Shown in pieces: positions 51 through 36,290 of a stretch of DNA of 64,000 nt. The notes under the pieces are model-generated. The model ran no database searches, was not told the DNA's origin, and saw only the letters and a list, made by a program, of their open reading frames with translations. This DNA is from Phalacrocorax aristotelis (Eukaryota; Chordata; Aves; Suliformes; Phalacrocoracidae). The stretch is taken from contig NW_027441295.1 in the NCBI RefSeq assembly GCF_949628215.1, forward strand, positions 62,001 to 126,000. The letters are read 5' to 3'. The stretch's first letter is position 1. Every line of letters starts with the position of its first letter. The translations under genes and the position numbers were made by a program.

Positions 51-272
51 TCAGCGGCAGCGCCTGCATGTGCCACGCAGCCACCGGCGCCCTCCAGAGC
101 GGCAGCTGCGTGCCCCAGCCCGGCGCCGGCTACCCCTGGAAGGGCATCTGCGAGCCCCAGGCCGGCGCCGCCTCTTCCCATCCCGGCGGGCAGGCCGGCT
201 CTGGCAGCGGCGCAGGGTGCTGCGTCGTTGCTGGCGCTGGGTACGGGTCCTGCTTCGCCGGGGACGGGCCAT
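51..272 (-). CDS. Protamine-like small arginine-rich protein (73 aa)
   Basis: The reading frame encodes 73 residues, of which I count 31 arginines and 5 cysteines (residues 23, 43, 57, 69, 72). It begins MARPRRSRTR, closely resembling the start of chicken protamine (galline), and ends in CRRCR. Protamines replace histones and compact sperm DNA in the spermatid nucleus, and the length and composition fit that family. The start is the ATG about 50 bases downstream of a clear TATA box; an in-frame ATG further upstream would lie before the TATA box. No intron is needed. Galline, as I recall it, has no cysteine, so these cysteines, which could form disulphides as in mammalian protamine 1, are unusual. 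The 3' end and polyadenylation signal lie outside the window. An alternative is a chance Arg-rich frame in GC-rich DNA, but the promoter and the N-terminal match argue against that. Confidence 0.72.
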   Translation of the reverse strand: MARPRRSRTRTQRQQRRSTLRRCQSRPARRDGKRRRRPGARRCPSRGSRRRAGARSCRSGGRRWLRGTCRRCR

Positions 273-320
273 GCTGGCCACCCTGTCCTGCCGAGGACTG
301 TGCCTCCGTGCCCCTGTCCC

Positions 321-416
321 GCTTTTATAGAGGTGCCGGGGCGAGGCCCTTTGTGACATGGACACATTACAGGGCCAACATCAGCGCTGGCATCACAATG
401 TCCCCACGATGACGCC
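321..416 (-). promoter_or_regulatory. TATA box and CRE half-site upstream of the protamine-like gene
   Basis: On the minus strand CTATAAAAGC occupies 321-330, about 50 bases upstream of the chosen ATG, a normal spacing for a short leader. A CRE half-site (TGACG on the plus strand at 410-414) lies about 85 bases further upstream. Spermatid genes, protamines included, are typically driven by CREM through CRE-like sites plus a TATA box. The TATA box is seen directly; a role for the CRE half-site is inferred. Confidence 0.55.
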
Positions 417-519
417 CTACCACACACGGGCTCCGTGGCTACTGGCCGGCCGCAGCCCGCGGGAGGGGGGCGCCTGCCCCGCACCGGCACCAGCCCCGCG
501 TCAACACCTCTGAAGCCAG

Positions 520-1000
520 GCAAAATCGCAGAGTAACTCAAGAGTCAATTTGTCCGAGTACTGAGGAGGTATTCTTTATTGCAGCACTGTGTGCTTAGGG
601 GATCGCTCCTCCCAAGGCACACCAAGCGGTGAGTGCAGCCTGCCTATACACAAGCATGGGATACACATTTCACATATTTCTGGGAGATCTAGTACATGGT
701 TGTGACTCTTGCGGGAATTGAGGGTTCCACCTTCTTCTCTTCCTTTTATGGTATTTCTGCCCTCCTGCTAATTTGGTTCGATGGGATTTTTTCCTCATCA
801 TTGTCTTCCCCAAGGGTCGTAGCTTCATCCCATCACACTCTTGCATTTACTCAAATTTCATAGCATCCAATACAACCTTACCAACCACCACCCCTCCCCT
901 TCCCATCCTTTGACAAGATACACAAATATCATTCCCTTAGTCTATGGACCTTCCCTGTAAAATGTCCGTTAAAACGTCCATTGAGTTCACCTAATCCATG
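520..1000 (-). mobile_element. ERV LTR (R/U5 part), minus orientation
   Basis: Read on the minus strand, an AATAAA signal lies near 570-577 and is followed by a segment typical of retroviral R/U5. It sits on the 3' side of the minus-strand pol remains at 1223-3000, so it is the 3' LTR of that provirus. The outer edges are approximate because no clean TG...CA ends or target-site duplication could be fixed by eye. The protamine-like gene starts within about 250 bases downstream in the same orientation. Confidence 0.5.
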
Positions 1001-1222
1001 TCTCTGGGCTCCATCTGTTGTATCAGTCTTTCAGGGTGGGAGAGATGGTGTGTGTGGCGTTGGGTTACTGCGTACCAAGTCAGTCATCGTCCCATCACTG
1101 CTGCACTTTACTTGTTTCACAGTTTATCTTCCATGGCTTGGGAGGCTCGTACTCTGATATCATTGCTACAACACAGAGGTGACACACAATATTATATAGC
1201 AGTTCGCATTGCCCCATTCAGT

Positions 1223-3000
1223 TCATTGCCTGTTTTCGCCCAAAATCAAATCCCCTTGAGGCACACATCGGATTTCTCCGTCCTCCCGCATCACCCACCA
1301 AGTGCACCCAGGTCCTCGAGCAAAAGCAATCCCAGGAATGGCTTTGCCTTTGCCGGAGGCAGGAAGGACCCAGACTGTGTTGCCCAGCGTACTTTTTGCG
1401 TGCGCTACAGGGCCTCCATCCCCTCCCACAGGATGTAGGATTTCTGACTGGGCAGGGCCAGCTCGCCTGGCAGATCCCCTCGTGTTGACTAACCACGTGG
1501 CTTTTGCCAAATGTGCACCCCAGGGCCTGAATGTCCCACCCCTCATTGCTCTCAGCGTAGTTTTTAACAGTCCATTGTGCCGCTCCATTTTCCCAGAGGC
1601 TGGTGCGTGACAGGGGGTGTGATACACCCACTCAATGCCGCGCTCTTTGGCCCAGCTGTCTATGAGGTTATTTCGGAAACGAGTCCCGTTGTCTGACTCA
1701 GTTCTCTCTGGGGTGCCATGTCGCCTCAGGACTTGTTTTTCCAGACCCAGGATGGTGTCTGGGCAGTGGCGTGGGGGATGGGAGATGTTTCCAGCCAGCC
1801 GGTCGTTGCATCCACCATTGTAAGCACATGGCACTTGCCTTGGCGGGTCTGTGGGAGTGTGATATAGTCAATGTGCCAGGCCTCCCCATATTTGTATTTC
1901 AGCCATCGTCCCCCACACCACAGAGGCTTTACCCGCTTTGCTTGCTTGACTGCAGCGCACCTTTCACATTCGTGGATAGCCTGTGCAATAATATCCATGG
2001 TCAAGTCCACCCCTCGATCACGAGCCCACTGTATGTTGCATCTCTCCCTTGATGGCCTGAGGTGTCATGGGCCCACCGAGCTAGAAGTAGTTCACCCTTT
2101 TGCTGCCAGTCCAGATCCACCTCAGCCGCTTCAATCTTGGCAGCCTGATCCACCTGCTGGTTGTTTCGATGCTCTTCAGTGGCCCGACTCTTGGGGACGT
2201 GAGCATCCACATGCCGTACCTTTACAACCAGGTTCTCTTCCTGGGCACCAATATCTTGCCCCAGTGCGGCAGCCCAGATGGGTTTGCCTCTGCGCTGCCA
2301 GTTCTGCTTCCACTGCTGCAGCCAGCCCCACAGGGCATTTGCCACCATCCAGGAGTCAGTAGAGAGATAGAGCACTGGCCACTTTTCCCATTCAGCGATG
2401 TCTAAGGCCAGCTGGATGGCCTTTACCTCTGCAAAGTGGCTCCGTTCACCTTCTCCTTCAGCAGGTTCTGCGACTTGTCGTGTAGGACTCCATACAGCAG
2501 CCTTCCGTCTCCGGTGCTTCCCCACAAGGCGACAGGACCCATCAGTGAGCAGGGCGTATTGCTTCTCATTTTCTGTCAGTTTGTTATAGAGTGGGGCTTC
2601 TTCAGCACATGTCACCCCCTCCTCTGGTGATATTCCAAAGTCTTTGCCTTCTGGCCAGCCCATGGTCACTTCCAAGATTCCTGGGCCACTGGGGTTCCCT
2701 ACTCGAGCCTGCTGGGTGATCAGTGTGACCCATTTACTCCATGTAGCATCACTTTGTGCTAATCCCACCTGGCACTGCTTGTGGTTCTCCCGAGTGCGGG
2801 GGGCTTTGAAGAGCTCTTGGCGCACAACGGGCACCCAGCCTCTGTTCGCACCATACCCGATCGTCGCTCATGGGCTCTTCCTTGACCGTACGCCGGCAGA
2901 GTGGCGTTATAACCTTGCCAGGTGCTCTCCAGCACTCCCTGACCATGATCACCAAAGATCTCTCTCTAACAAACCATCAAGCGCCTCCTCTTCATAAGCG
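1223..3000 (-). pseudogene. Decayed ERV pol: RNase H and integrase
   Basis: A retroviral pol remnant. At 2001-2834 the frame carries an RNase H domain with its acidic residues (TDGS, an E in FAEVKA, TDSW) and an HVDAH motif. It then enters the HHCC zinc-binding part of integrase. The frame breaks near 2010, is picked up at 1726-2010 with the first catalytic Asp (HIDY), and breaks again near 1770-1830. It continues to 1223 with the second Asp (SDNG) and the Glu (MERHNG). At least two frameshifts therefore make integrase non-functional. Sequence at 2834-3000 looks like the connection region after reverse transcriptase; the polymerase itself, gag and env are not seen here. The class resembles common avian ERVs. 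Confidence 0.85.
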
Positions 3001-4648
3001 AGCAGGCAAATGCACACACAAGCACTGCTCTCTGGCAGGAGAGCCCTCACTAACAGTTTAGATTAGCAATCAAGACCGGCAAGCACACTTGACAGTAGCA
3101 CTCAGTTCCAGGAGGACAGAAACACAGATAAAATCTAGCCACTGCTTCACACCAGGAAAGTGATAAATGCTGGTCTTTTGCGTTACGCTGACATGAGTGT
3201 TAGTAACGGGAGATAAAGGAACTGACCGGCCTCCAGCTGCGTATTAGTGACAGCTGCTTCCAGTTGGTTCTTTGACTCAAGGCTTACCTGGCCCACAGAA
3301 CTGCTGGATCCTGCGGAGATGAGCATGCCGTTCTCGTCCTTTAGGAAGCTCCTCTGAGACCAATAGGCTGGATCAGAAGCAAAGGCTTTGCTGTGCCCTG
3401 GATTCCTAGGGTCACACACGCTTGTGCTGTCGGTGTTCACAGAAGTCACACACCTCCTTCCTGCATCCTTCTCTCTGTCTGTATTCAAATTACAGCCATA
3501 GTATCAAACTACCAGCAATCAGGCTTTCACTAATAATTCATCGTCTGGTCTGCGTTTAAACCCAGTTCAAGAGCAAGGCACACCACACCGATGGCTGCTG
3601 TGGGATAAGCCTGCTCTTGAACCACGTCGGGTGATGCACAGCCCAGGAGTGGGTGACCTGAACCAACAGGCACATCAGGAACCGTCACCTGCATTTTTCC
3701 CTCTGCCTCACGTATGGGTCACCCACACAGCACAGTGCATTGGAAAACGCTTTTTATTTGAGGAACAGATGTCATTCAGAAGGAACCGCAGAACATTTCT
3801 CTCCGAGCAGCCAAAGGCACTCATTATCGTGACTGCTTTGGTGAGAACAGCATTCCTGCGATGGAAACCTGCAAGTTTTGCACAGAAGACAAAAGTACCA
3901 ACAACATAAGAAACAAATGCTACCTTACTATGTGAAATTCTATTATTTCATAGCATTTTCCGACTGGCCTAGACTAAGAGGTTACAAGCATTGCCTAACA
4001 ACTCACAAGAGACTATGGACTGGCTTCTGCCTGGAGCTTGCTTCTTCCCCACCACAAGCTAGTTATGGTTGGTTACATGGGAAGGGATGAATTGCAGCAA
4101 ATAAATGGAGTGCGCTGACAACCTTGAGAGTCATCTTCCATGAGAAGGGGTTCTGATGGGGGATTAAACTACTTAGTTATCTGCGGCCTTATTTGCACGC
4201 TGGGCATGTCCTTGTAGTACAATCTGCCCAAGGTCTTGGTCTTTTCTCATGACAAAAGGACAGCAGAGAAGGGCAGTAACTGACCTTCATTGCCCTCAAG
4301 TCCAAATATACCAGAACTGAGGTTGATTTGGCCCTACCACCTGTAGGAAACTCATCTGACAGCTACTGGCCTCTTTCCTGCTCTTTATCGTTCTGCCTAT
4401 TTTTAAGTGAAAGAGGCAGAAACAAAGCAGAAAGATGTCAGCAAGTGGGAAGAGATTACTGTTTGATCACACAATCAAGTCTATCAAGATGTGTACACCA
4501 ATAGCTTGATGCTAATCATTGTTTTAGTTTCAGCTCTCTTAAATTCTCTAAACATATTTACCATAACGTAAATATATGAATTTTGCATAACAAACATTAT
4601 CATAACAGAAAAAACTCGCTCTCAACTGGGTTTCTGCTCGTTTCCTAC
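3000..4648. other. Unassigned interval between ERV and last visible ELYS-like exon
   Basis: I see no convincing exon here. An open minus frame at 3183-3488 ends in a good donor (CAG|GTAAGC near 3287), but its possible acceptors are out of phase with the preceding ELYS-like exon and its protein matches nothing I know. The long disordered C-terminal half of ELYS must be encoded further left, outside the window, or is missing. Confidence 0.4.
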
Positions 4649-7600
4649 CCATAACTCTCTAACTTTGGCCAATACACGACTGCTGAAAGGTTCTCTTGGA
4701 TCCACATTTCCTGCATTAGCTGGTTTTGTTACTGATGAGAATGGCTTTGGTCTTGCGGCTGTAAAGCACGAGGGAAAAACGATCAGCCTTGTGCAATCAA
4801 AGCGATGGTTAGTTGTGCGTTATGTTCCCCCCTGAAAAATTACCTCCTCTTGGTCCGGATGAAGGCAGACGGGAAGGCTTGGCTCTCCCTGCAGCCAGCT
4901 GCCTCGGACCTCTAGGAAGGGTCTTGCCGTGTTGGCCTGAGAGAGAATTTCTGGCAACTGCTCTCTGTCTCCAGCGAGGAGCACGATCGTTCTGATGAAC
5001 AAAAAGCGTAAAGCAAGAAGTTTCACCCGGTATTTTTAGCCAAGCCGAAGGAAGACTGGAATAACAACAGAACCTACAGCTATTACTTAAAATCATTCCC
5101 GCACTCTGCAGAACCTGATTCTGACACGCTCGTCAGCACCCACAAGTTTCACGTGGCTGACAAAACAGCAGCCTTTCCCTTGTTTTTCCTGAAACGCCGC
5201 TGTCCCAGGTGACTGAATCTCCAGGGCAACGGCGGGTTACTTTGGACAAAAGGAAGTGAGGATTAAAACGAGGAAGAGAAAGCTACCTACACTCCCCATC
5301 CCCCTGGATGGAAGCTTTCAAATGCAGGACCTAAACCTTCCAAAGCCACCTGGGTAAGTTTGCTTCCCTGGAGAACTATGGTTCCAGAAAACAGCACATG
5401 GATCACAGAACCACAACAGAAGTTCCCATAACACAAAATTTGACCTGCCTATTTTGAGATACAGAAGTTAGGTAAGAATTTTGGTCCTAAAAGTGGTAAA
5501 ATGAAAGCTGTGGAATTGCAGACCTCACGCTATAACTTGAGGAAATAATAAAAAGAACAACCCGTAATGTAAATGTTGCCTGTGGGTTGGCACCCAGAGC
5601 TGCGTGCAAGATACCAGAGATGACACACAACACACTCTTCATTCCACAGTGACCCAAACAACTTCCAATCATCCGAACCCTACATAACGTACGTCGCTGA
5701 ATATCTGAATGGTAGGAGTGGCTGACAGGAAAGATACTTATTTAATCCTCGGACGCAAACTGTTTGAAGTGGAGTCAACAACAGCCTGGAACACGGAATT
5801 TCCAACTGCACGGGGCAGCTTTGGAGTAGTGACACATTTTGTTCAGCTTTTAGGTTCAGCTGTAATGTAAGGTGCAGAGGCTTACTACAAGTATTTCAAA
5901 GAAGGGTGTGATAAAGAAAGCAGGATTCTTACTGAGCGCTGTTAAACCGGTTAGTAACCCCTGAGAGAAACTGGCACACTTGGCAGGACTTTTACGCTTA
6001 CCATGAGATGAACGTTCATCGCCTGGTTCAGCCGTGCTGCTGCCGTACAGTTGGCACGCTGCAGGTGCTGGACTAAAAGAATTTCATGACTCTCTAAAAA
6101 TTTCTCCAAACACTTCTACGAGAAATAACACATTTTAAAACATATATGATGATCCTGCCTCTTCTCTTGGCAAAGAAGGGATTCAGATTTTCCTCTTGCC
6201 CACACTTACTTGTTCAGAGTCTGTGAAAGGCAGCTTCAGGAAGTCTTCCACTAGTCCCATCTCCCGACAGATGTCATACATATCTTTTAATAGCTCTTCC
6301 TCCTTTAACTGAGCGGCGTCTTCCTGCAGCAGACCCCAAGCCTCTGCCATGCACCTGTAGTTAATTTTTTGAGATGTAAAGGTGTATTAATAGTATAACT
6401 AAAAAGATGCACCACAATTATTGTGCTCAAAGTTTAAAGGAAATTTAGGGGATTGTGATTTCTAGTGTTTGTTCTCCACCTTTCACAGGATTTCAATGCC
6501 AAAATGGTGGCATATATTTCTTTACCTGTTGGACAACAGCACAGTGAGGAAAAGCCGCTCTTCACAACTGCTTGAGAACGGTGGCTTCATCACCTGCATG
6601 TATCTGAGGGCTCGCCTATGCTGTCCTTGGCACATGAGGGACCCAAGAATTCTCATGTGTTGCCACGACACAGGTTTGGTTGTAGCTGGGTGAAAGAGTA
6701 GGGCCAGGGAATTCTGCAGAAGGGGGAGATCAGGTTTACTAAGATCACAGAATCCCAGGTTGGAAGGGACCTCAGCGATCATCTAGCCCAACCTTTCTGG
6801 GAAGAGCCCAGTCTAGACAAGATGGCCCAGCACCCTGTCCAGGCGACTCTTGACGGTGTCCAACGTGGCCGAGTCAACCACCTCCCTGGGGAGATTATTC
6901 CAATGGTGACTGTCCTCAGTGTGAAAAATTTCCCTCTGGTGGCCAATCGGAATGTCCCTAAGAGCAACTTGTGTCCATTCCCCCTTGTCCTCTCCATGGG
7001 ACTCTGTGTAAAAAGGGAGTCTCCACCTTCTTTGTAGCTGCCCCTGAAGTCCTGGTACACGGTGATGAGATCCCCTGAGCCTCCTTTTCTCAAGGCTGAA
7101 CAAACCCAGCTCTCCCAGCCCATCCTCGTATGGCAGCTTCCCAGTCCTCTGATCATCCTGGTGGCCCCTCTCTGGACCCCTTCCAGCCTGGCCACATCCT
7201 CTTTGTATAGCGGGGACCGGAACTGGACACACAAGCACACAACAAAACTGTTCAAAAGTTTCTTCAGTAAGGGTGAATGTCCTTGATACCGGACAGGTAA
7301 ATATAAATTCTTTACTATTTGCAGAAAAAAAAAATCAGTTAGCCATACAGAAAAAAACCAGAGTTTTTTAAAAGGAGTGATTCACACTCGGCTAGGGTAA
7401 CCAAATCCCCATAGGCAAACATCACTTCTTATAAATACAAGTTATTCTCCCAGACAGGTTGTATTAAAATTGTGACAGGCAAAGAGCAACCCTCAGCATC
7501 AGAAGGAACATGAATTAGATTGAAGAGTCACTTTGGCGGTCTTCTGTCTCAAATCTTGCTGCTAGGATGGTCGTTTGACTATTTAAAGTACCCAAACCAC

Positions 7601-10600
7601 TGCTTTTGAGAAAGTGCTCGACTGCTCTGCTGAGAACAACCTGAACAGATGGCTTTGGCAAGTCACACGTCAAGCATTAACGTTGACTTCTTCATTCTCT
7701 TAATCCATTTCCTGTCAATGTAATTAAAACCAAACTGCAGATCATCACGTATTCCTGAAGGTGCTGCTGGAGCAGGATTACAAAAAAAGCTTCCCATGTT
7801 TTATCACCTGTTATTAGCTAAGCACCAGGTTTTTAAAGTCATTTGCTAGATCATAGCCTTGTACCACAACGTATGCCTAACTAAACTGTCACATGCTTAC
7901 TTCATAGTCCTTGTGGTCTAGAAGCCAAAATCCTTGAATAAGCTTAACAAGGCCCGAAGGGATGGCAAAGGCAGCTGCGAAGGAGTCGACGGAAGCTTCT
8001 GTTTTGTTCGGAAAGGAATGTATGATGTCTAGCAGCAAGTAAATTGTCTGATATCAAGTATCTAATTAAGGCTAATAAATTTGCAAGACCAACAATTTAT
8101 CACAGGAAATAATATTATTCCTATGATTAATATAATAGGAATAAATAATAAAAGGAAATAAGAATATCATAGTGGTAGGACACAGAAAATACTCATGTAT
8201 TAGTCCTGCCGTTTTACGCTGTTGCAACCTGAAGATAGTCAGGCCCTAACAACAAAATTGCATTCCGAATAAATAACCAGAAAGACAGACTCTCTGATTT
8301 CTCTAAGGCATTCAGAAAGGTTGCCTTTTGATATTTAAACAGTTCCATTGGAAACTCAGGCTCCCTCTTTAGTCACTGGAGCCACCAGCTGGACATTCAA
8401 AACACGTGAACGGCCAATGCTTGATTATTAAAGCAAACAAATTCTACAGTTGGTTTCTTCCCTCCTTTCCAGCGTATATGAAACAACTGAAATTAGGGTG
8501 TCCTTACAGCACAGCTTAGCTCTGAATGATTAAAACTGGATTTGAACCAGTACCTGGATCATTCATCGGCAGTGTCCTTTTCTCTTTCTGACAGCTGTTT
8601 TGGGGGGTCTATTCTCATCAGAGAGCTCCGGGGTGCAACAGCTTTTAAAGCCCCTGCTCTCTAGGCTCCCCCCTCGGGTCAGGCAACAAACAACCAAAGC
8701 AACGCAGCGCATTTTGGCAGCTTAAAACTTCAGTTTCTGCCCAATGGCTTTTCTCTTCTCTCTCTCTTTATTATTCTGTGTGCCCGCACTTGTAACAGCA
8801 CAAAAGCAAGCCCTCTTAGCTGTGCTGGAAAATGGATGATTTCAGCAAAATCAGGTCCTGGTAAACCGCTGTCAGAAATCCTTTTGCTCTGAAGCAGCAC
8901 ATTCTAGTGCATCGCTCGAGGAAGCAGCCGTTTGCTACAGGTATGGGTGCTTCAAAAATGAAAAACAGTTTACATTTTGAGAAAATCTAAGGGAGCTTTC
9001 TACTTTTAACATTGCTTAGTAAACCTGTTTTCTGATATCAGAAAAGACTTTGCAACAAAACATTTTAAAAATTCCTAAAAAATCCACAGTACAAACAAAT
9101 AATCAGTGCTTCCTTCCGTGCCTTCATTCTAAACTACATGTTTTCCCTTGCACTGTGTTTGAAGCATAAATTAGAAAATGCATCGAACGCGTAGGTGACA
9201 GACATTTCAGACCCCTGATGCACGTATACTGGAGGTGTGACAGAAATAACTCCAAGGGATACGATTGCATGTTTGTGGCTTTCCTCAACGCCTTCTAGCA
9301 AATAGAGCTCCAGCAGTGCCTGGAATGAAAAGGGAAAAGGTTTTTAAAAACTCCTCTCTTTGAGAAATCATTGGCTTTGGGGGAGGGCTGGGCTGGGGCT
9401 GGGGTTTGTGGTGGTGGTGGTTGTTTTCAGGGAACACAACACTCACCCGTAAACTAGGAGGTGGGTATTTCCCAGCTCCTCCTTCCTCTCTCCGCCACAT
9501 CTCCTCAACTTGGTCTCCCAACTGGGAAACCATCCCATCGACCGTCAGGCAGTCAGAGTCCCATTTGCCTCTGGAACAAAACGTAGCAAGGATTTGACAG
9601 AGGAAAACACTAATTCCAGCCTCGCGGTGTCACAGATTTCCTCCAGCCAAAACAAAACCAGCAAAAGCTCCCACGAGCCCAAGAAAGGAACAAACAGACA
9701 CAGGCATGATCGTGACTTGAAATAGACTGGAAAGAAATTTCTGAGTCAGATGAAAGGTGTTCATTAGATCATAGTGAGCTATTAAAGGAGTTCCAAATAG
9801 GAATCCTAGAAGCTCCCTTATTAAGGGGAAAGTTGCAGTTTTCAGTTTTTCTTTTTTGTCGCATTACTTGTAATACAAAGGCAGTGTGAGCAAAGCTACC
9901 CCAAATCTCACGCCTCCAGCGGGACTGTTCCCACACACAGCGGTGAGACCACAGCACGGAAATGTCCGGCTTTGTTCTCAGCACCTCGCTTCTGTTACTG
10001 AAAAACAGTCACGGTCACAAAGCTGAGCCCACAGCTGAATTCTGGTATCGCCTTAAGCAGCACGTTTGTGCCTCTGCACATGCCATCACAGTGACGGAGG
10101 GCTGGCCTGTTAAACACTGCATTCCTCAGAAGCCCATCGCAGGCTCCTGCGGGCTGCGACGCCAGCCTTTCATTTCCCGAGGAGGACGAGCAGAAGCAGC
10201 ACGCTGGAGGTGGTGCTTCTAAGGAGCCCGTGAGCCTGTACGAGAGTTACCTCAGAAGGAACCTCAGGAAGAGGAGCTTGAAAGCCAACGCCTGACATAG
10301 AGCAGCTTCCACCTGGACTCCTCCTGCAGCACCTTGTTCACGGTGCCACAGCCTGAGCTTCTTTAGGACTTGCTTTAGTTACAGTACAGGTGCCAAATTA
10401 AAATCTGCTCTCACCTAACCCAAGGCACATCACCTGTATGCCAGGGAGCCAGTCCAGGAAAGGGAGTTCCCGTGAGGAAGGCACTTTTATCCAGTCGCCA
10501 GGAGAGCGCTGGCTGTGCCAGCTGCGTGGACCTCTGCCCATCTCCTTAAATGACACGAGGAGCTTGGGAGTAGGAGATTTGGGCCAATCCCCTTATTGCC

Positions 10601-13600
10601 ATCTACTACTCATCAAGGAGAGAGATTATTTTTGGTTTTTAAAACATGCTTTCTTCTGTGTCCAGAACAATTGCTCTGCAAAGGCCGTGCCTTGCTGACC
10701 TGGCCATGACTGACCCTGTCCTCATCACATGCCCTTTTCCAGTAGTCACAAATCACACAGAATAGCCAGTGAATTACGTGCGCTTCAAAGAAACGATGAT
10801 ACCAACAAAGGGCACTAAGCAGAGGTATATATCAACGTTTTAACCCAGGAAAGTAACCTCTGTGTTCTGCAGAACACGCGCATCACTGAAGTCAAGGCTG
10901 TTGCCGGCAAATGCATGAAGCGTAGCAAATGCAGCTGTTGATGGAAAAGCCACTCGCTGCCGCTTCTGAATTTGCAGTGGAACTGTTGTAGAGCTTTCCT
11001 GCACGTCTTACCTTGATAAACGCTCCAGTTTCTGTCGATGACCCGCGTAGTAGCTCTGAATCAGAGGATAATAGTAGAAAGGTCTAGAGAAACTCATATC
11101 ATCACCTACAGGCAATAAATAAGATGTAAGTTAAAGAAGTCATATCATATTTTCAACCTACAGTTTTTGACTAAAAAAGACACAACACAGAAGCTGAGCA
11201 TCAAAATCACAGGCCAGCCTCCGACTTTGAAAGAAGCCAATCCTCCTTCTGCCTTTGCTAAAAGAGACCGAAGACACAGGAGTCAATTCCTTCTTGTCCC
11301 AAGCGCCATTTCAAGTTTACAGCTGAGGTCGCATCCAGAACATGTAGTGTCAGCTGAGGTTCACTATAAAGAAAAACCCCAATTCTCAAAGGGAATGGGT
11401 GTTTAAACATGTCACGTGAGCATGCGTAAGGCAATTAAGGCTGACAATAGAATTTATAACCCATCCAAATGATGACCTATTTCCAAGGTGTATTTTTTCC
11501 ACAAACAATCAGTAAAAAGATCAAAACATGCAGGCCATGCTTTTACTGTAAAATCAAGCATTCCAGTGTCGGTGCTTTAAGAGTTACTTGTTTAAAATCT
11601 CAAGTATTTCAAGCTGTGGGCACGAGCAACTCCTTCACTCAGAGGCTTAGTGCTGTTTCTGAGAAACATCCCGGAAAGAAACTTGGCATCATTCTACACG
11701 ACGTAGTTGAAAAAAACCCAGTAAAACCTCCATTTCAGCAGCATAACTTCAGCATCTGCTGTCACTGAACCGGCACGGCTTGGTATTGATGAAGCACTGA
11801 CAGAACCACGGCTAAGCAGGTGTTCATAGGAGCCACTTACTGCTACAAATGCAGGACAGTTTATGCTTACCTGAGCCCTCGGGCAGGAGACGGGACCAAC
11901 AGAACCAGAGGACCACTCGTGCATACAAAGCTGTGAGGCTGGTTTCTGCCAGCTTCTTTGTCAAGTCTGCAAAACAGGTAAAAAAAGCTCAAGAGGACTG
12001 TTGGTATGCAATTTCTTTTGTTTTGTTTTGTTTTGTTTTTTAATAAAACTCCCCTCATTGCACTAAAGCGAAAGTAGAAAAATAACAGGCTAGAAATCTT
12101 TGCCTTTGCATTTTTTTCACTCCGTAACACGTCCTTCTCTGAAGAAAAAACCCACAATCACAAGCAACCCCTACAGAGACGCAGATTCACTAAAGGTTAC
12201 ATAAAAAAAAGTAGTCTGAACAGTTAAATCCACTCATGGATAAGACATCTGTTTTTCACAGAGCAGAGATTTTTCCTCTAGCAAAGGGATATTCTCTTTT
12301 CTCCTCAATATGCCAGGAACAATTGGTAATAGAAACAGCTACAGAAATTCATGCAACTCACTTCACACGTCACTCATTCGTGCTTCCTTTCCTTTTTTAG
12401 TAATTTCCAATCCAATATTTGCATGCAATTACGCACTGCTAGCTGACAATCAAAGGGAGTATTTGTCACAGTGCCACATCCCGCTGCTGTAATTTCAAGC
12501 CGGGTGCTTGCACAGCTCCTTGCTGAACGCAGCCTCCCCACCCACTCGCACCAGCCCCACAACAAACTCTTGCCCTGAACTCAACGCGCGTTAAGTGGCA
12601 GCCCCAACCCCTCCCATTTAAGCCCCTTCTCCCCGCTACATCTGACTTGCTGCCCATCAGCAAAACCAACAGCAGCTCCTCTTTCCACAATTACAGCCCC
12701 AGCATCATCCCAAATCTTAATAAAACATACCACCGAGTTAGAAATACTGTGACAAACCTTCTCCAGCCAGCTCGTGGGCTGCTGTTAGAAAGCAGTTTAA
12801 GACTCTGCTAAGGTTGCTCAAGACCAACTGGCAGCGCTGAAGAGCCTGTAACCTCTGCGGGTCAGTGGAGCTGCAGGAGCTGTCAAACAGCACAACACCT
12901 TTTCAAGAGCAAGTATGAAAGCGTTAGCCTGCAGAGCAAGTTCAGAGTCACAAAGCGCACTTCCAGATCTGCGGGCAAGACCATCTACCAGCAGATCACT
13001 GAATGAGCTCAGCTGGAAAGAATGACTCTAGGTTTGCAGCATGGCTGCACTAGTACTCACAGATTTGGTCAAATGCGCCTTTTGTATAGATCACTTTGCT
13101 CCATGTCCAGTCAAGGGCAAACTCTACATTAGCAGCAGAACTTGGCTGCTCTCTAAAAAGAGAGAACAACAAAGAAATGAATCAAGAATTCCAGACTAAA
13201 AAAATATGCAACACAAAAACCACATAAGAAGTGTTACCTTTAGATGTCCAAAGCTTAATGCAGCCGCTCAGAAGCCCTACAGAACCTGTCTGGGCAGCAG
13301 CTGACAAGACCGCCTCTAACTGCTCCTCCTAAACGTAGCAGACAAAAGAAAAGGAGAATCCCACCTGCTTTCAACATCCCAACCACCAACAATAAGTGCT
13401 TGTTTCTAACTGTGCCCTCACTCGGGCATCACAGGCTGGGCTGCTTGTTGCTGGGAGGAGCACAGGAAACTTTCCCTCTGACATGACAACTTACCAAAGG
13501 CTAATTCTAACCTCCTGCACAGAACCTAATGCTTTGAGGAACTGACGGGGGGAAGGTTGTTCTGAGGGAACGATGCTTCCTTTTCTCCAGTCTGCCCTCC

Positions 13601-16600
13601 TTTTCCCAGCTCATCAGGGATCAAAACCCAAACTCAGGACCATGCAGGCAGTTGCACTCATTGATGAGAGAGAAGGAACAGCTTTCCCCGACTTTCTCTT
13701 CCTGCTCCTAGAGCAGCGCTGTCTTCCTTTCTAGACATTCAGGCCCTGATCGTGCTTCAACGGGAGGCAACGGTGGGTTTACACGCCCAAGAGGGGACCT
13801 CAGACATCACCATTTGCATAAAACTGGCAGGGTACAATTGCAGTTACGCGTGTGGATGGGCAGGAGGAGCATAAAATGGCCTCTGACACTGAAAGCAGTG
13901 CCATGGAAAGCTTAGGAAAGGTCCATCTCTTGACATTCTCAATAAAGACACAGTAAAAGCTCACCTCCTTCTGGAAGCCGCTGCACGTCATATGAACAAC
14001 TCCAGAGCTCAGCAAGCACCTGCCATCTGCAGAGACAACGAACGCTGGTCAACATTCCATACTCTCACCGTGATGGAAGCACCAGTTTACATTTTTGTCA
14101 TAGCAGCCCCTGGAAAGGTACAACTGAGTACCCGTTCTCCTCCTCAGAGCACTTAAAACCTTTTTTTAGAAAAATAATGGCTGAGTGTAGAAATTTTACC
14201 TCCGGGGCTATCGAGGTGCTGCGCTTTGAGCTTCAGCCCAGAGTCATTTCATGTGATCACCAGCACCACGTCATGGGCTGCGTTACAGAAGCACCCAGCC
14301 CCCAGACTCAGCCGACTGTCAGAATGGTGTCACAATAGCACACGCTTTGTCAGTACAATGTGATCAGAGTTGGGCGGGGGGGTGAGCTGGGGTGTTTTGG
14401 TTTGGTTGGGTTTGGGTTTTGCGTGACAGCCAATGAACAGGGGAACCAATAATGGCATCTGAGCTCGGTTTAAGCTTATCACTATTCCAAGCAGTGAAAT
14501 ACCTACCAAAATTATAGGTGCTTGGGTGAAAACACAGCTCAGGGTGTGGATAAGAAGGAGGAACTCTCCAGCTTAGGCTGCGCTCCTGCACCACAACATC
14601 CAGAAGGAGGTTTGGAGCAGTCGTGCTTGTCACAGCGTCCAGTGACCACAGTGCAAAATAGGGGCATCCCTGAAGGGATTCTTCTGGCCTGAAAGAAAAC
14701 AAGTGCAGAAGCTAAACGCCGACTTTCCAATGAATTATGGGGAGGGGTACTGAAAACAACTCCATCAAAATCTACCTTAGTGAGCGTGGCATTTGAGCCT
14801 GATACCAGCAAGTAATGTCAAATACACCCAAATAAGTAGATGGTTTTCCCTGGCTGCGTGTATTCACTTGCCAGCTGAAGACTGAGACACTGGCGTCAGG
14901 AGATATGACTGTAAAAGACAAGACATTGTGTCTTATTGGGAGAAAATACAATATACCTGACATTTTCAAAACACCCCTTTCTATTTTAGCTTCATTCTGC
15001 TACATCACTCATGAAACGCAACACTTCAGTAAGAATAATTTTAAACATTTACACCGTAGCAAACACCTCTGTGATAGGTTTCAGTCATACTGCCCCCCTT
15101 TTCGAGTTCCAATTGTCTCCATCCTAAGCCAAATCAAATACACAATTATCAGCTAATCAGGTTTTCCATACAGTAAGAGTGGATCAAGATGGTTAGCAAA
15201 AAAACCCCCACAAGAATCCCAAAACAAAAAAAGACCCTAGGAAAACATACCTCGCTACTTTTAGAAAGCATACAAATACTTGTCGTATACACTTGATCAC
15301 TCAGCTGGCATTATTAATTTCCAGATTTGACTTAATTACAAGTTTTTCGAATAGCTCCTTTCCAGCACAGTCAGAATGAAAGAACACAATTATCAGACAA
15401 AACAAATACAAAACCCCAAACCCAACAAACAGGAAATTGGAACAAAGAGTTTAACATCAAACATTGACCATGTTACACTCGGGTTCTCTCAAGAAGTGGG
15501 ACGGTCTGTCTCCTCTGGGGAAGGCATGCTCTAGATGTGAGCAAAGTGGGTGGTGCATCCTTTACCCTGACAGAGCAGGGAACCAGGAGACAGGTCGTTT
15601 GGCAAAATGGGTCTCTGTTCTCTGCTGAATTCATCAGTGCTGCTTAGGGAGCCTCCCACGCTTTACTGTGTTTCATCGTGAACTTCTGTGCCCTTTCGCT
15701 TGTGTGAGCCGCTGAAACTGCCTTTGAAGATATCAATTAGTTCCATAAATCAGAAGCCAGCTGCATTTCTAACCTCAATCCACATCCAACGGTAGCTCAT
15801 GTGGGCCTACAACCTGAATAGTTTCTGGACAAAAGCTAATTAGGGTCCATCAGAAAAATTACAAGTATTTTTCCATGCCTCACACTTCATAAAAAGGGGC
15901 TTTTTTGTTGGTTTTGTTGGGTTTGGTTTGGTTTTTTTTGGGGGGTGCGTGTGTTGTTTGGTTTTGACAAGTTTTTAGAAGGCCCTCTCCCCAGAATCAT
16001 GACACAAGTGGAGAAAATCCAAAGGTGTTTTTATTAGGTTTTGACACCCTGTTGTTAGAGGGTGGCACCACAAAAGAGGTGGAAGCTGCCTCTTCAGGAC
16101 TAAGTCAAAGCTAATAAACACAACTAGCCTAGAAAGTCATGCCAGTGCCTCCTTTGTGACCTCAGGCATAAGTTAAGGCCAGTAAGAAGAGAGGGAAGGG
16201 CATTCACACACCCAGACAAAAGGCTGTGGCAGTTATCTTTCTGTATATCAGTATCTTTCTGTATATCAGTATCTTTCTCGTAGTGAGGGGCCCAAAACTG
16301 AACACAGGATTCGAGGTGCAGCCTCACCACCGCCGAGTAGAGGGGGACGATCACTGCCCTACTCCTGCTGGCCACACTATCTCTCATACAAGCCAGGATG
16401 CTGTTGGCCTTCCTGGCCACCCAGGCACACTGCCGGCACATCCAGATGGTTGGGGAAGGTATCAAACAGATCTGGCCCCAGGACCGAGCCGTGGGGAACA
16501 CCACTTGTGACCGGCCGCCAGCTGGAGGCAGATGCAGGCATAGGTTTGAAGAGGGGAAAAAAGAAAGTTCAGGGAACATTCCTAAGCAATGGAGGGGATG

Positions 16601-19600
16601 ATCTTGCTGTTCAAAGACGAGAGCTGGAGGAATAAAATCACTGACAAGTGTTATAGAGGTGACCCCACCATACATCGCTACAGCATGTCAGCAAGCATTG
16701 AAGGAAAAAATAGGGTTTATCTTAGCAAGTCCCACAGAACCCAAGCACCCAGTTTTTCCTTTGAAATAAGCCCAAGAAGTTAGTCTATATAGATTTTTAA
16801 GACCTTCAGACTGTGGGTATAGAACAGCATTCATTGCTTGGACTCCAAAACCATTTCGTTTAGAATCACCAAACAGGGACATCAGGAACAAACCTTCATC
16901 AACGCTGCCTTCTCTGGCTGCGTGGGTGGGAAAGGTTTCTACAGCCCGACAGCTGAGTAACTTGGCCTTGCTGCCCTGCCCTCTCAAGGGAAAGGCTCCA
17001 CCCGTCAGATCCAAACTGTACTTTTCAACACAGGATGCCAAACGCTGTGGAAAAAATCACAGGTGAGAGAAAGGTCATTTTCAGATAAAAGCAGACATTA
17101 TACCTAAGGATGAAAGAATGTCTATATCTAATATAACCTGCATATTGTACTGTATCACTCCCAGGCGCTTAATCTGATGGCAAAGAGAAACTACACCTGA
17201 CACGCAAGAGAACTAAGTGTCAAACCGTAATGGGTAAGTTTGGCCGTAAAAGCTTTGCACATTTTCAGAACTGAGCATTTCCCTCGCATTATTGGTTCTG
17301 AATGTGTTTTGCAGAATTCCTTGCAACATCCAGATCTCTTCACAAACCTACATATTTATCTAGAAAGAGAGATCTGAAATAATGCAATACATAGGCATGC
17401 AAAGCGCTTTGCTCCGTGACTTGATTACGGAACTGATGAAGTTAGAGAAGTCACGGCATTCCAGCAGCCAAAGCTCTCTTGCGAGGCATTATCTATAGGC
17501 ACACACCGCTAGAGTGAAAGCACATCCCTCGGGAGCAGCCATGAGAACGTCTTACTGATTCACAGCCTTCTCTCAAACCACATAAGCTCCTGCCAGCTCC
17601 TCCTCTCACCTCGTCAGAGATAATGGGTGAACTATCCCTCCATCTTCCATTAACTACACCACAGCTTTCTCAGGCCACAAACACAACAGCCTTATTTTAT
17701 CACTTTGTGTCCCTTTTTTAAAGACTGTCAGCTGGAGGTTCTAGTAGAGCCATATTTAAAAGCTGCTGAAACACTTCAGCCTTCTGAGCTGAAAACTGAC
17801 ACTCCTCACATCGTATTCAGGAAAATAAGATGACCGAGGCAAGGAATCACCAAAGAGTAAAAGGTCCCGCAGTGTAACATTGAAGTATGGAGACAGAACA
17901 AAGTAGCCACCAGAGGAAGGGCTACAGACAACTGGGGTTTTTTACCAAAGAAGGACACAGGACAAGGTCTTGTCTTTGCCACAGCTAAGGCTGTAGCTAC
18001 AAACAGTTTTTAAGAGAGGGTAAAAGAAAGCAGAAGTTCAAAACTGAAACTGGGGAAAAATTAACGAAACTGTCTCCTATCAACTTGCCACAGCGCTTAG
18101 AGCACCACAAGAGATGCACAAGTGAACTGCAATGAAAGCCCTTTTGTACGTGAACAACCCCATCAGGGTGCTCTGTTCCTCCACAGCACTGGATATTTAT
18201 GTCATTAAAAACTGCACATCAACAAAGAGGAAGAGAAGACATCCATGTTTAGAACACACTGAATCACCTGAAGGTACTTATACTTTGGCATCGTGAGAGA
18301 GAATGTGTTTTAAAGAAACACCACCTTTCCCCAACTCCTCACCTTTACCTGGTCAAAAGCAATATTTACCGATGAGGAAGGAGCTCTCCTCTACATAAGG
18401 AAAAAAGTCAAAATGTAAGGTCATTCAAAAAATCAAAATGCACAGTCCCTATCAAAACAGAGCACCACGATACAAGAACCACCCGTTTCATTCCGGACCT
18501 AGTGAGCATACGCAAGAGAAAGTAACAAAATCAGAGGAAAGAATTGCTCTGAATTAAGGTTACTTTCCCCTCAAAGAGATTTTGCCAGGGTTTCAAGCAT
18601 ATAAATATTACCCCTGCCAACTGCACTGATACTCCCTTAGAGAAAAGGACTCTTTCCATCTGTTCACGGATGTGCAAGTCTTACCTCATACAGGACTTGT
18701 CCCGATGGCAAGCGTCTTCTGGCAGCAAACACTAACTGCAACAGGTGTAAACTCAGAGCATCGCCTTCACTGAAAAGGTATAAATTATGACATTTGGTTA
18801 CAAAGCTGCTTTATAGTCCTCATTATCCTTTCCTTGGATCTAGGCTGAGGTTTCCTGAAGAGCACTGTCTCGCTGAAAAGAAAAACAGCCCTTCCCAAAG
18901 CATGACAATTGGTCACATTTAGCCGCTAAAACACAACGGAGGACATTTGGACACTAACAGCTTCTGGGGCAAAGGCTAACCACACAGTCTGAAAGCTTTA
19001 ACATGTTATGTGGACTAAAAATGGTTGGGAATAGCTCTTCACAGTGAAGAGTTCTCAAGCAAAACTGCTTTACAGTCAAAGTGAAAAAGATTGCCGCTCT
19101 ACGAGCAGCCGAGCTGAGTAAATAGCTTGCTGATGCTGAGAGGGGCAGATCTTTCCACCCTTCCCTTCCCACCAGAGCTCCAGTCCCTCTCCTGCACACA
19201 CGGCACCTTCCACACCCTCGTTTCAGTCATTAGCCCAGCAGGAAACCACCGACTTGGCTGCTGAACACCTTCCCTGCCAGGCGAGCTGAGCTGGCTCACC
19301 AAGGCTCAAGCTGGCACCCGGGAACCGGCCATGCTGTCACCTCCTCCTTTAGGGGCAGCAGGCTGGTGGATCGGCACCGTTAGTGCTCTGGAGCTGCAGC
19401 CTCCACTGCTTTTCATGGTATTTTTTTAATACCATGGTATTGAAAGAATAAGGAATAAAGAATTAAGAGAATGTTTCTTGTGTCATCAAGAAACAAAGGC
19501 AGCCATTTAAGAATGCAAACACAAAAATACAGCCACTGTCACTTTGCCACCTTGCAGCAGGGAGGAACTAGTAGGTCCCTCTTCATCTCTGCTAAATCCT

Positions 19601-22070
19601 GTAAAATTGCACCGTAAGCTCAACACCTTCCACACCTGAGAGAATCTCCTGCACAGCTAAATAATCACAACAAATATACGTGTGTCAACTGTATGTGAAC
19701 AGATAGATATAAAAAGTTAATTCAATGGCTTAGAGTAAGTTTTTATTCACCTTTCTTGTGTCGACTGAACAGCCCACAAGTAGCAACAATTGCGAGGGTC
19801 ATTCTCAGGCTCTTGAATAATGGCGTAGACAGGAATCCTTCCTCCTTCAAGCTGACAGTGGTGCCTAGAGGGTTAAAAAAAAAAAAGACAGAAAAAGAAA
19901 CAAGATGAGCCTAGTGGCCCCGACTGCTTGTTAGGGTGGAAGCATCTTCCGAGCAAAGAGCACCCGACATGCTTCTCCTCCCATTCCACCCCTGAAAAAG
20001 GTCACTTTGAAGTAACAGACTTCCTCCTCGAGCAAAGCCTTGAGAGCCCTGCACCTCCAGGCGTGACCAAGTGCAAAGGCCGACTTACTCCCGCTGCAGA
20101 GTTTTCACATCCCACAGTGACAGGCAGCCGTCGGAAAAACCCACGGCGAGCTGGTTGCTTCTGCTGATGTAGCGCAGGGTCGATATTGCTGTTCCTGAAG
20201 GGCTTTGCAGTTGAAAGCAGAGATGTCTCCCTTCTCTGGTCACCATTTCTCTTCTTAGTGGAACTCCAGCAGCAATTCTGGTGACAACTACTAGAGCTAC
20301 ACGCACAAAACCACACAATAAAGGAATGCATTATGCCATTCAGGTTGCATTTGAAACACTGACGTGACAACATGTATAAACTAATTCTACCGTCCCAGGC
20401 AAAATACCCATTGATGCAACACTTAGTTTGCTCTTTCCATTTTGTACATATTCGGAGAACATAAGAACTCTCTGTCTGGACAGGTATTCTCAGTCGTATT
20501 TCAAAACCAGGTAAAAGTGTAGCCTTCATAGACAAATTCTTCCTGGACTCTGCACATCAGGAGTTTGGGCCTCATGATGAAGCTCCTTGAAGTGACATCA
20601 ACTCTTGAAGCCACTGGTGTAAGAGCCAAAACAGAGTATGCACTCCAAATACACAAATTAGAGGTTTCTTTCATCCAAATGGATGGGGTTTGATAAGTTG
20701 GATTTAGATTAAAAAAAAAAAACAAACAAAACTAAAATTTGCCCCAAGCCAATGAACAGAAGCAGAAGAACATTCCCAAGAAATAGGGCACGTCCGATAC
20801 ACCTTCCTATCCGGCAGCTGCACCGACTCGGATGGTCAGATTCCTACTCCTCACTGGCAAGAATCACAGTGACAGAGGGACCCTGGTGGGAGGGGGTATT
20901 TGTAACCTTAGAAGGAGTACGAAGCCACTCCCATTTTTAATCCATTCAGGACCAGACAGTGTCAAACTGCTACCTGTAATCAGCAGTCATAAATGTCTGC
21001 ACAGCAGAATCTTCAAAGTGGGATGCATGTTGTTGATTTAAAAGACACAAGTTTTCTTACTTTTCAATTCAAGTTTAGAAACTGCAGCTTACCCGATGGC
21101 TCATTTTCCCTCTGGCTGCAAGATGGATCATCCAAACCAAGGTCCACCACAAGTAGATGACCAACATCTGTTGCCACCGCTGCCGCTCCACAGAACCGCT
21201 GCAGAGCCCGGTGTAGGTGCCAAGGCCTCACGCTGGCTCCTCCGGGACTAGTTATGGGCTCTATAGCAGTTACCTACAGGAAAACTACAAGTTAATATTT
21301 AAGCTGTTTGACAAGCTAAATAGAAATCACTGAAAATTGAAGCCAGAATTAGGAATATAAGACTTAAAAACACAGCATTGTTTCCAATTATATCAAGAAG
21401 AAAGAAAGGAAAAAAAAAGCCCTCTACAAACATCCGTTACTGCCTTGCGTTTACTAGAATTCCTGCAGTTATTTCACTGAGTTCACATCGACTGCAATGG
21501 CGCACTCTATTATTACAGCTTACCAATTTCCATTTCCTGCAGTTTTCAAAGCCTTTTTGTGCAAGTGGAGAATTAGGTAACTACGTGCTCTACCATAAAA
21601 CCAGAAAACTTGTTTTACTATCAGTAAACTCAAAGGATAATGGTACTGTGAAGCCCACCATTTTACATCATGCCGCTCTCGACTGGACACTCTGCAGTGA
21701 CAGCATGATGACGCAATAGAGAAAACAGACTTCCTAACAAAGAGACGCTCCAAAGCTGCTCCTGAAACAGCGTTATGCAGCACCTGACAGCGTTTCCCCC
21801 ATTAAAAAGCACCTACCCTTCCTGGCAGAACAACTGCTGTAACCATGCTCGATGTCCCCGGGTCATACAGGCAGAGGACACTTCCCTCTGCTTCTCTCAA
21901 GCCAACCAGCAGCCCCGTTCCCGTCTGCCAGGAGACCTCCTTCACCACGCGGATGGTGGGAGGCTGCTCACGGGCTCCACTGAAACGGTGTGCAGAGAGC
22001 CGCTCCCCCGTCACAGCGCTCACGACCTCCAGCTGAGGGCCACACGCCAGCCAGGCCAGGCCACCTCTCC
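4649..22070 (-). CDS. AHCTF1: AHCTF1/ELYS-like nucleoporin, 22 exons (5' and 3' incomplete)
   Basis: ELYS seeds nuclear pore assembly on chromatin by recruiting the Nup107-160 complex. Exons in transcript order: 21817-22070, 21093-21273, 20089-20296, 19751-19864, 18685-18769, 16894-17044, 14776-14908, 14507-14688, 13965-14026, 13238-13328, 13061-13150, 12758-12898, 11871-11966, 11012-11105, 9447-9570, 9263-9319, 7901-8047, 6526-6713, 6210-6354, 6002-6115, 4844-4991, 4649-4758. All have AG/GT borders, successive phases match, and the 971 codons contain no stop. The first exons give the N-terminal beta-propeller ([36 protein letters not shown]). From about 13.3 kb leftward comes the alpha-helical region ([25 protein letters not shown]). 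About two thirds of residues seem identical to human by eye. An exon expected between 13328 and 13965 was not found, and the last exon ends at a plausible donor (TGG|GTAGGA). It could be the normal gene or a paralogue. Confidence 0.9.
6741..7250 (-). mobile_element. CR1 LINE 3' fragment, minus orientation, beside an ELYS-like exon
   Basis: The plus strand at 6743-6795 reads ATCACAGAATCCCAGGTTGG and continues through the block typical of the reversed CR1 tail. Sequence to about 7250 continues as reversed CR1 3' region, including the end of ORF2 ([15 protein letters not shown] on the minus strand). The element runs in the same direction as the ELYS-like gene. Its 3' end stops about 29 bases from the acceptor of the exon at 6526-6713, leaving a short pyrimidine tract. 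Confidence 0.9.
12016..12040. repeat. (TTTTG)n simple repeat
   Basis: About four to five copies of TTTTG followed by a T run, inside an ELYS-like intron. Confidence 0.8.
15897..15965. repeat. T/G-rich low-complexity tract
   Basis: Runs of T and G with GTTTTG and GGTTTGG motifs in the long intron between ELYS-like exons at 14908 and 16894. No gene is seen in it. Confidence 0.7.
16130..16485 (-). mobile_element. CR1 LINE fragment, minus orientation
   Basis: The minus-strand reading contains [20 protein letters not shown] and FWAPHYEKD, the hallmark C-terminal part of CR1 ORF2. It lies in an ELYS-like intron, shortly downstream of the exon at 16894-17044. An 18-bp unit is repeated inside it. 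Confidence 0.88.
16234..16280. repeat. 18-bp tandem repeat, 2.6 copies
   Basis: The unit TATCTTTCTGTATATCAG occurs at 16234-16251 and 16252-16269, followed by a partial copy. It lies within the CR1 fragment and repeats its DTDIQK-coding sequence. Confidence 0.85.
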
Positions 22071-35219: not shown

Positions 35220-36290
35220 AGCTGAGGTCGCTTGGAAAGCAAGGGGGTTTAACCTCTGCCAAATTATTCAACCCAACAGTGGATTGTGACCGTCTCCTTT
35301 TCTCCAGGCTGAAGAAACCAAGTGACTTTAGCTGCTCCTTGTGTGGTTTCTCCTCTAAACCCTTCACCAACTTGTGGCCCTCCTCTGGGCATTCTCTAGT
35401 AGCTTTGTATCTGTAATGTACTGTGGCACCCAAAACTGCCCACAGCACTTAAGGTGAGGCCGCCCCAGCGTGGAGCAGAGCGGGACAATCCCCTCCCTCG
35501 ACTGGCTGCCATGCAGGGCTCGATGCCCCCCAGGGCACGGCTGGGCCTCTGGGCTGCCAGGGCACGCTGCTGGCTCGTGTTCAACTTGCCGTCGACCAGA
35601 ACCCCCAGGTCCCTCTGCAGAGCTGCTCCCCAGCCCCTCGTTCCCCAGGCTGTCTGTATATCCCAGGTTGCCATGCCCCAGGGGCAAAATCAGGCACTTG
35701 CCCTCATTAAACTTTATACAGTCGGTGATTGCCCAGCTCTCCAGCCTGTCCAGGAGACATGGTAGTGTTAGGAGATATGGTAGTCTTGGGTTGACGGTTG
35801 GACTTGGTGATCTTAGAGGTCTTTTCCAACCCTAATGATTCTGTGATTCTATGGTCTCGCTACAGGGCCTCTCTGCCCTCGAGTGCCAACAGCTCCTCCC
35901 AGTTTTGTGTCGTCAGCAAGTTTAGTTAGTATTCCTTCAAGCCCTGCACCCAAGGCATTTACCAAGAGATTAAAGAGTACCAGAGCCAAGATGGAGCCCT
36001 GTGCAACCCCACTAGTGACTGGCCGCCAGCCCAATGTAAGCCATTGACTATGACCCTTTGAGCCCGACCCATCAGCCCATTGCTCACCCACTGCATGACG
36101 TGTTTATCCAGCTCTGTGCTGGACAGTTTGTCCAGGAGAAGACTGTGAGAGAGAGTAGCGAAAGCTTTACTGAAATCCAAAAAGATCACATTGGCCGACT
36201 TCCCTTGTTCAGCTAGGTGCGTGACCTCGTCATCGAAGGAACTCAGATTTGTCGTCGTTCCCCATTTGTCGCTCCAATTCATCCTCTCCC
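35220..36290 (-). mobile_element. CR1 LINE fragment including reverse transcriptase, minus orientation
   Basis: The minus-strand reading at 35959-36282 contains FLDFSKAFATLSHSLLLDKL and [10 protein letters not shown], a CR1 reverse transcriptase fragment. Sequence to 35849 continues with VTSGVAQGS, and 35220-35760 carries the downstream part of ORF2. Stops and shifts are frequent. It is interrupted by the opposite-strand CR1 tail at about 35765-35860. Confidence 0.9.
35765..35860 (+). mobile_element. CR1 3' tail, plus orientation, nested in an older CR1
   Basis: TTGGACTTGGTGATCTTAGA followed by GGTCTTTTCCAACCC and the ATTCTGTGATTCTATGG end is the canonical CR1 3' terminus. It sits inside the minus-oriented CR1 and splits it, so it inserted later. 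Confidence 0.88.

Follow-up and report, generated by a model that had tools for sequence, protein, structure and literature searches.

The window analyzed here, a 64-kb stretch of DNA (G000:C240:62001-126000, in a 1.279-Gb assembly of 352 contigs), carries at positions 51-272 of the minus strand an intronless coding sequence of 73 codons followed by TGA. The encoded product is MARPRRSRTRTQRQQRRSTLRRCQSRPARRDGKRRRRPGARRCPSRGSRRRAGARSCRSGGRRWLRGTCRRCR, which begins MARPRRSRTRT and ends TCRRCR, and the frame is open in four genomic copies. The initial annotation described a protein of 73 residues with 42% arginine and five cysteines, and the translation agrees, with 31 arginines (42.5%) and five cysteines. 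The product also has seven serines, seven glycines, four glutamines, one tryptophan and some proline, and it lacks histidine and tyrosine. In both size and composition it belongs with small, arginine-dominated proteins of about 55-75 residues. The reading frame stays open upstream to position 380 and includes an in-frame ATG at 359. The TATA box lies downstream of this ATG, which makes 272 the likely start.

When all six frames were scanned, 51-272 minus proved to be the most arginine-rich stop-free stretch of 73 residues in the window. The runner-up, with 27 arginines at 55-273, is the shadow of this frame on the plus strand, and further stretches reach 17. Given the 27 arginines in 73 residues of the shadow frame, part of the arginine richness follows from the CGC/CGG-rich DNA. 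In 2000 dinucleotide-preserving shuffles of positions 1-420, the best stretch had 13.5 arginines on average and 22 at most, and 31 was reached in none of them. No ATG-to-stop frame of 45-110 codons in these shuffled sequences exceeded 31.1% arginine. All six arginine codons are used in the gene (CGC 13, CGG 8, AGG 4, CGT 3, CGA 2 and AGA 1).

We identified TATAAAA at 323-329 on the minus strand, which bears out the earlier claim that the gene has a TATA promoter of its own. This is the sole TATAAA in positions 1-520 on both strands, and there are 21 in the whole 64 kb. The first T of the box lies 30 nt upstream of an initiator-like A (CA at 300-299, read from the sequence), which gives a predicted 5′ leader of 27 nt (273-299, minus). 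The ATG at 272 is flanked by A at -3 and G at +4; start context and initiator were judged by the usual consensus rules. Farther upstream is CGTCA (410-414, minus), a half-site of the CRE, an element with a role in spermatid promoters. On the other side of the gene, in sequence taken from C240:55001-64900, an AATAAA begins at the 99th base past the stop codon, beyond the window, and is followed by a GT-rich stretch. The predicted transcription unit is thus about 370 nt, without an intron. By this sequence anatomy, the gene resembles that of galline, the chicken protamine, in having a TATA box, no intron and a short 3′ end. GC content is 0.74 in positions 1-500, where the CpG observed/expected ratio is 0.77, compared with 0.44 for the whole window.

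Upstream of the gene and in the same orientation is an endogenous retroviral remnant (511-2834, minus), with an LTR edge placed by eye at about 511. It includes matches to integrase (about 1514-1774, minus, in frames spanning 1223-2010) and RNase H (about 2292-2552, minus, in a frame at 2001-2834). A second LTR was not found within 480-20000. Only some 210 bp separate the end of the remnant from the predicted transcription start of the gene, which the LTR could influence. Beyond it, at 4634-17122 on the minus strand, are exons similar to ELYS (AHCTF1). Of the 2266 residues of ELYS chain 7r5j_T0, they match 297-374 and, one exon after another, 603-1071. The matches end at residue 1071, near 4,634, and the C-terminal half of ELYS was not detected before the retroviral remnant. 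This half is poorly conserved and may therefore have been missed. As the rest of ELYS was not detected, either the ELYS-like gene is truncated and the arginine-rich gene follows it, or the arginine-rich gene sits in one of its introns. ELYS-like exons recur at C240:16461-53052 in both orientations with 87-97% identity, and may represent a nucleoporin gene family that has been amplified and is possibly truncated.

Mammalian protamine genes have SOCS1 and other characteristic genes as neighbors. Families of that cluster were not found when the six frames of the window and of C240:42201-62000 were searched against Pfam. The families detected there were ELYS, ELYS-bb, retroviral domains, a weak AAA_16 and a weak kinesin. 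The AAA_16 match (E-value 0.00044) probably stems from a Walker-A exon at about 52356 of the window, minus strand (GREKEIDLF...GTMGSGKS). The frame of this exon had no match in the PDB, and it is reminiscent of soluble adenylyl cyclase. Within C240:42201-62000, the kinesin-motor match (E-value 0.00045) has as neighbors another ELYS match and a reverse transcriptase that carries an integrase C-terminal domain. At about 35,790-35,855 of the window is what we take to be a CR1-like 3′ end, which fits a bird-type genome, as does the size of the assembly.

Searching the assembly with the protein returned four matches at E-values of 0.001 or below, all with open frames: C240:62054-62272 (the window copy), C240:229891-230109, C42:23197-23415 and C141:140134-140352. 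Relaxing the threshold to 10 added four weak matches, the best at 0.69. Both C240 copies have five cysteines, and those on C42 and C141 have four. Residue 14 is glutamine in the window copy and arginine in the other three. Among the four coding sequences there are three differences, two that change an amino acid and one synonymous. Over the region from -239 to +345 five sites vary, and four of these are, by eye, CpG-type transitions, including the Arg57/Cys57 and Arg14/Gln14 exchanges. A CpG change also turns the CRE half-site into CATCA in the C42 and C141 copies. The fifth variable site lies within the TATA box, which in the C141 copy is damaged and reads TGTAAAA.

The duplicated DNA extends well past the gene. 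The C42, C141 and second C240 copies are 98.95-99.84% alike over the 20-30 kb stretches compared, and they could in part be haplotypes. Relative to these, the window copy is 98.6-99.2% alike upstream, and downstream of the gene it is 3-7% divergent beyond 2 kb. Provided that the assembly is correct, the two C240 copies, 168 kb apart on one contig, represent separate loci. As the low-divergence stretch exceeds the gene on both sides, divergence among the copies is uninformative on selection. The three coding differences, two of them amino-acid changing, give no sign of purifying selection, and the copies are too young for selection to be tested. Within the part of C240 that was covered (1-242,800 of 349,000), several segments repeat the ELYS-like and right-hand segments of the window with 87-99.7% identity and in both orientations. 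Further copies of window positions 35-63 kb occur at C240:138366-166488 and C240:187769-196444 (99.0-99.7%), indicating that young duplications make the covered part of the contig a mosaic. The inverted ELYS-like unit at 16-53 kb of C240 has no ATG-to-stop frame of 40-130 codons with at least 25% arginine, so the gene is not a part of all units.

With the gene and its promoter as a DNA query (window 54-520), at least 15 matches were found in the assembly, four of which are the copies described above. One of the others is an old copy of the promoter region (275-508, minus), matched by query positions 13-246 with 79% identity at G000:C35:24686465-24686695. On the start-codon side of this relic, where 120 bases were read, ATGGCCCGTTCCTGGCGAA occurs some 22 nt beyond the expected place, and 17 of the first 19 coding bases are, by eye, as in the window gene. 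The relic then leaves homology and stops at codon 10 (MARSWRMPY), and the sequence after the break presumably belongs to a CR1-like element. Because the relic keeps both the promoter and the first codons, these two seem to have been together since long before the copies were amplified, a sign that the gene is old. Its broken frame indicates that at least one family member died.

A 103-nt GC-rich module inside the promoter region (376-478, minus; query 43-145) has at least 10 further matches, with 82-84% identity. These sites are at C240:8526, C240:210337, C141:120579 and C42:3651, and on C63, C10, C16, C11 and C23 (two). Three of the sites were readable, and no protamine unit was present at any of them. 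The module may be either a dispersed element or a shared promoter module.

The N-terminus of the protein had been described as galline-like. Against a provisional galline sequence, residues 2-10 are identical at eight of nine positions, close to MARYRRSRTR, and drawing residues at random from the composition of the protein equalled this in 1 of 50,000 trials. The two other spans compared gave similar results: six of seven for residues 2-8 (9 of 50,000 draws) and eight of 11 for residues 2-12 (13 of 50,000). The full-length local alignment to this galline sequence had a score matched in 102 of 2000 composition shuffles, barely above composition, so the likeness is clearly specific at the N-terminus only. 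Similarity to a provisional human PRM1 sequence was not above composition, with 1161 of 2000 shuffles as good.

Neither the 73-residue protein nor its extended frame matched a Pfam family, and no homolog of the protein was found in a database of 5.8 billion proteins. As the provisional galline sequence was also unmatched in both resources, these negatives are blind and say little. The human PRM1 sequence matched PF00260 at 48.9 bits, showing that Pfam recognizes this protein and that the window protein fails the P1 model. A genome search with the PF00260 model returned no match, and 14 control genomes were equally silent. Nothing useful was found among solved structures in the PDB (two matches, at E-values of 0.36 and 0.87), a search of viral contigs gave no relative, and Rfam had nothing at curated thresholds. 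An iron-response-element match from Rfam (E-value 0.37) was dismissed as chance.

The five cysteines are residues 23, 43, 57, 69 and 72, and all are encoded by TGC, one CpG transition away from the arginine codon CGC. Four of them are common to all four genomic copies, and the fifth, residue 57, is arginine in two. The exchange at this residue is TGC versus CGC, a CpG transition. CpG transition of an arginine codon accounts for the gain or loss of at least one cysteine and suggests that acquiring cysteine in this gene is a one-step by-product of arginine richness. On the same CpG reasoning, the fifth cysteine is probably a derived state, and of the four copies the one in the window has probably changed most. 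Avian protamines are not known to contain cysteine. The portions of the literature that were searched contain no direct statement to this effect. In published work, cysteine is described as sporadic among sperm nuclear basic proteins, including those of vertebrates, and as ubiquitous in those of eutherians (PMC11607694), and galline in mouse sperm is reported to be able to disrupt disulfide bond formation (PMC10944935).

In combination, the evidence makes it probable that 51-272 minus is an intronless protamine-type gene, real or very recently so, that is related to galline and lies in recently duplicated (ampliconic) DNA. The promoter, start context, poly(A) signal, arginine content, galline-like start, four open copies and high local CpG ratio favor a real gene; the one damaged TATA box, the two changed CRE half-sites, the broken C35 relic, and the lower arginine content and missing tyrosine relative to galline count against it. 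A distinctly less probable reading, although one to be taken seriously, is that this is a recently pseudogenized or relaxed protamine copy and that the working protamine is encoded elsewhere. Ampliconic copies would then be decaying, with CpG deamination converting arginine codons to cysteine (TGC), glutamine (CAG, CAA) and tryptophan (TGG), and the cysteines as CpG decay of arginine codons are a live rival. All five cysteine codons have the expected form, and the window copy has three CAG, one CAA and one TGG codon, so that its four glutamines and its tryptophan could also be CpG-transition products. The predominance of CpG-type transitions among the variable sites (four of five between -239 and +345, by eye), the promoter changes in the C42 and C141 copies and the broken C35 copy point the same way. 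However, the window copy keeps its open frame, TATA box, start context and poly(A) signal, and four cysteines are common to all four copies. Decay should also yield histidine (CAC) as readily as cysteine, yet the protein has five cysteines and no histidine (one-sided p = 0.03 under blind CGC decay, a post hoc and weak result).

Two further explanations are improbable. The product could be some basic protein of spermatids that is not the final protamine, such as a transition-protein-like or protamine-2-like auxiliary. This would fit an arginine content below that of galline, the presence of proline, glycine, glutamine and one tryptophan, and a likeness to galline that hardly exceeds composition past the N-terminus. 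Nevertheless, that N-terminus and the intronless TATA gene are nearer to galline than to a transition protein, and Pfam matched no family at all. Even more improbable is that a GC-rich CpG island holds this open frame by chance. Long open frames do occur here on both strands, and the arginine-rich shadow frame shows what CGC/CGG-rich DNA can contribute, but none of the shuffled sequences reached the arginine count and all six arginine codons are used. Chance would also need to have supplied the TATA box, initiator, start context, galline-like start and poly(A) signal.

Returning to the protamine-type gene that we favor, the initial annotation of a protamine-like gene is upheld by composition, N-terminus, promoter, start context and poly(A) signal, and its cysteines are real, four of the five being common to the copies. 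The disulfide-linked avian sperm chromatin that it went on to propose is a more doubtful matter, and one that we put forward tentatively. Transcription from the TATA box would take place in round spermatids, possibly aided by CREM via the CRE half-site, and the short mRNA would be translated late. The highly basic, disordered protein would then replace histones, its arginine clusters neutralizing the DNA backbone. The cysteines, if used, would oxidize during sperm maturation and cross-link neighboring protamines, and the egg would need to reduce these disulfides, as in eutherian mammals. It is conceivable, if rather speculative, that a bird lineage amplified a cysteine-bearing protamine whose disulfides lock sperm chromatin, that this evolved independently of eutherians through one-step CpG transitions in arginine codons, and that five- and four-cysteine copies now exist side by side. 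Such amplification may reflect male germ-line conflict or dosage selection.

What is new here is the occurrence of four intact gene copies in segmentally duplicated DNA, some of which are perhaps haplotypes. If used in sperm, the protein would give a bird an unusual counterpart of the disulfide-locked sperm packaging of mammals, and would break the working rule that bird protamines are free of cysteine. A bird case of disulfide-linked sperm chromatin would be notable rather than revolutionary. Near-identical copies that differ by an Arg/Cys CpG exchange would also provide a natural pair for the effect of one gained cysteine.

Among known systems, galline is likewise short, intronless and arginine-rich, and shares the start MAR-RRSRTR. 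It differs in that the window protein has four or five cysteines depending on the copy, no tyrosine and 42% arginine, compared by eye with about 58% in the provisional galline sequence, and in that the window gene is present in four copies within segmentally duplicated DNA. Because the galline type is not known to contain cysteine and all four copies have it, we label the gene protamine-type and do not file it as galline. Mammalian protamine genes have one intron. Eutherian protamine P1 (PF00260) shares the MAR start and arginine clusters with several cysteines, but the window protein has no Pfam match and no similarity to P1 beyond composition. The reported histidine-rich protamine of ostrich and tinamou is also avian and also departs from galline in composition, there through histidine and here through cysteine, without histidine. 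Finally, the Y-linked multicopy protamine-like genes of Drosophila, described in PMC10120018, are amplified protamine-type genes as in this study, but belong to an unrelated family.
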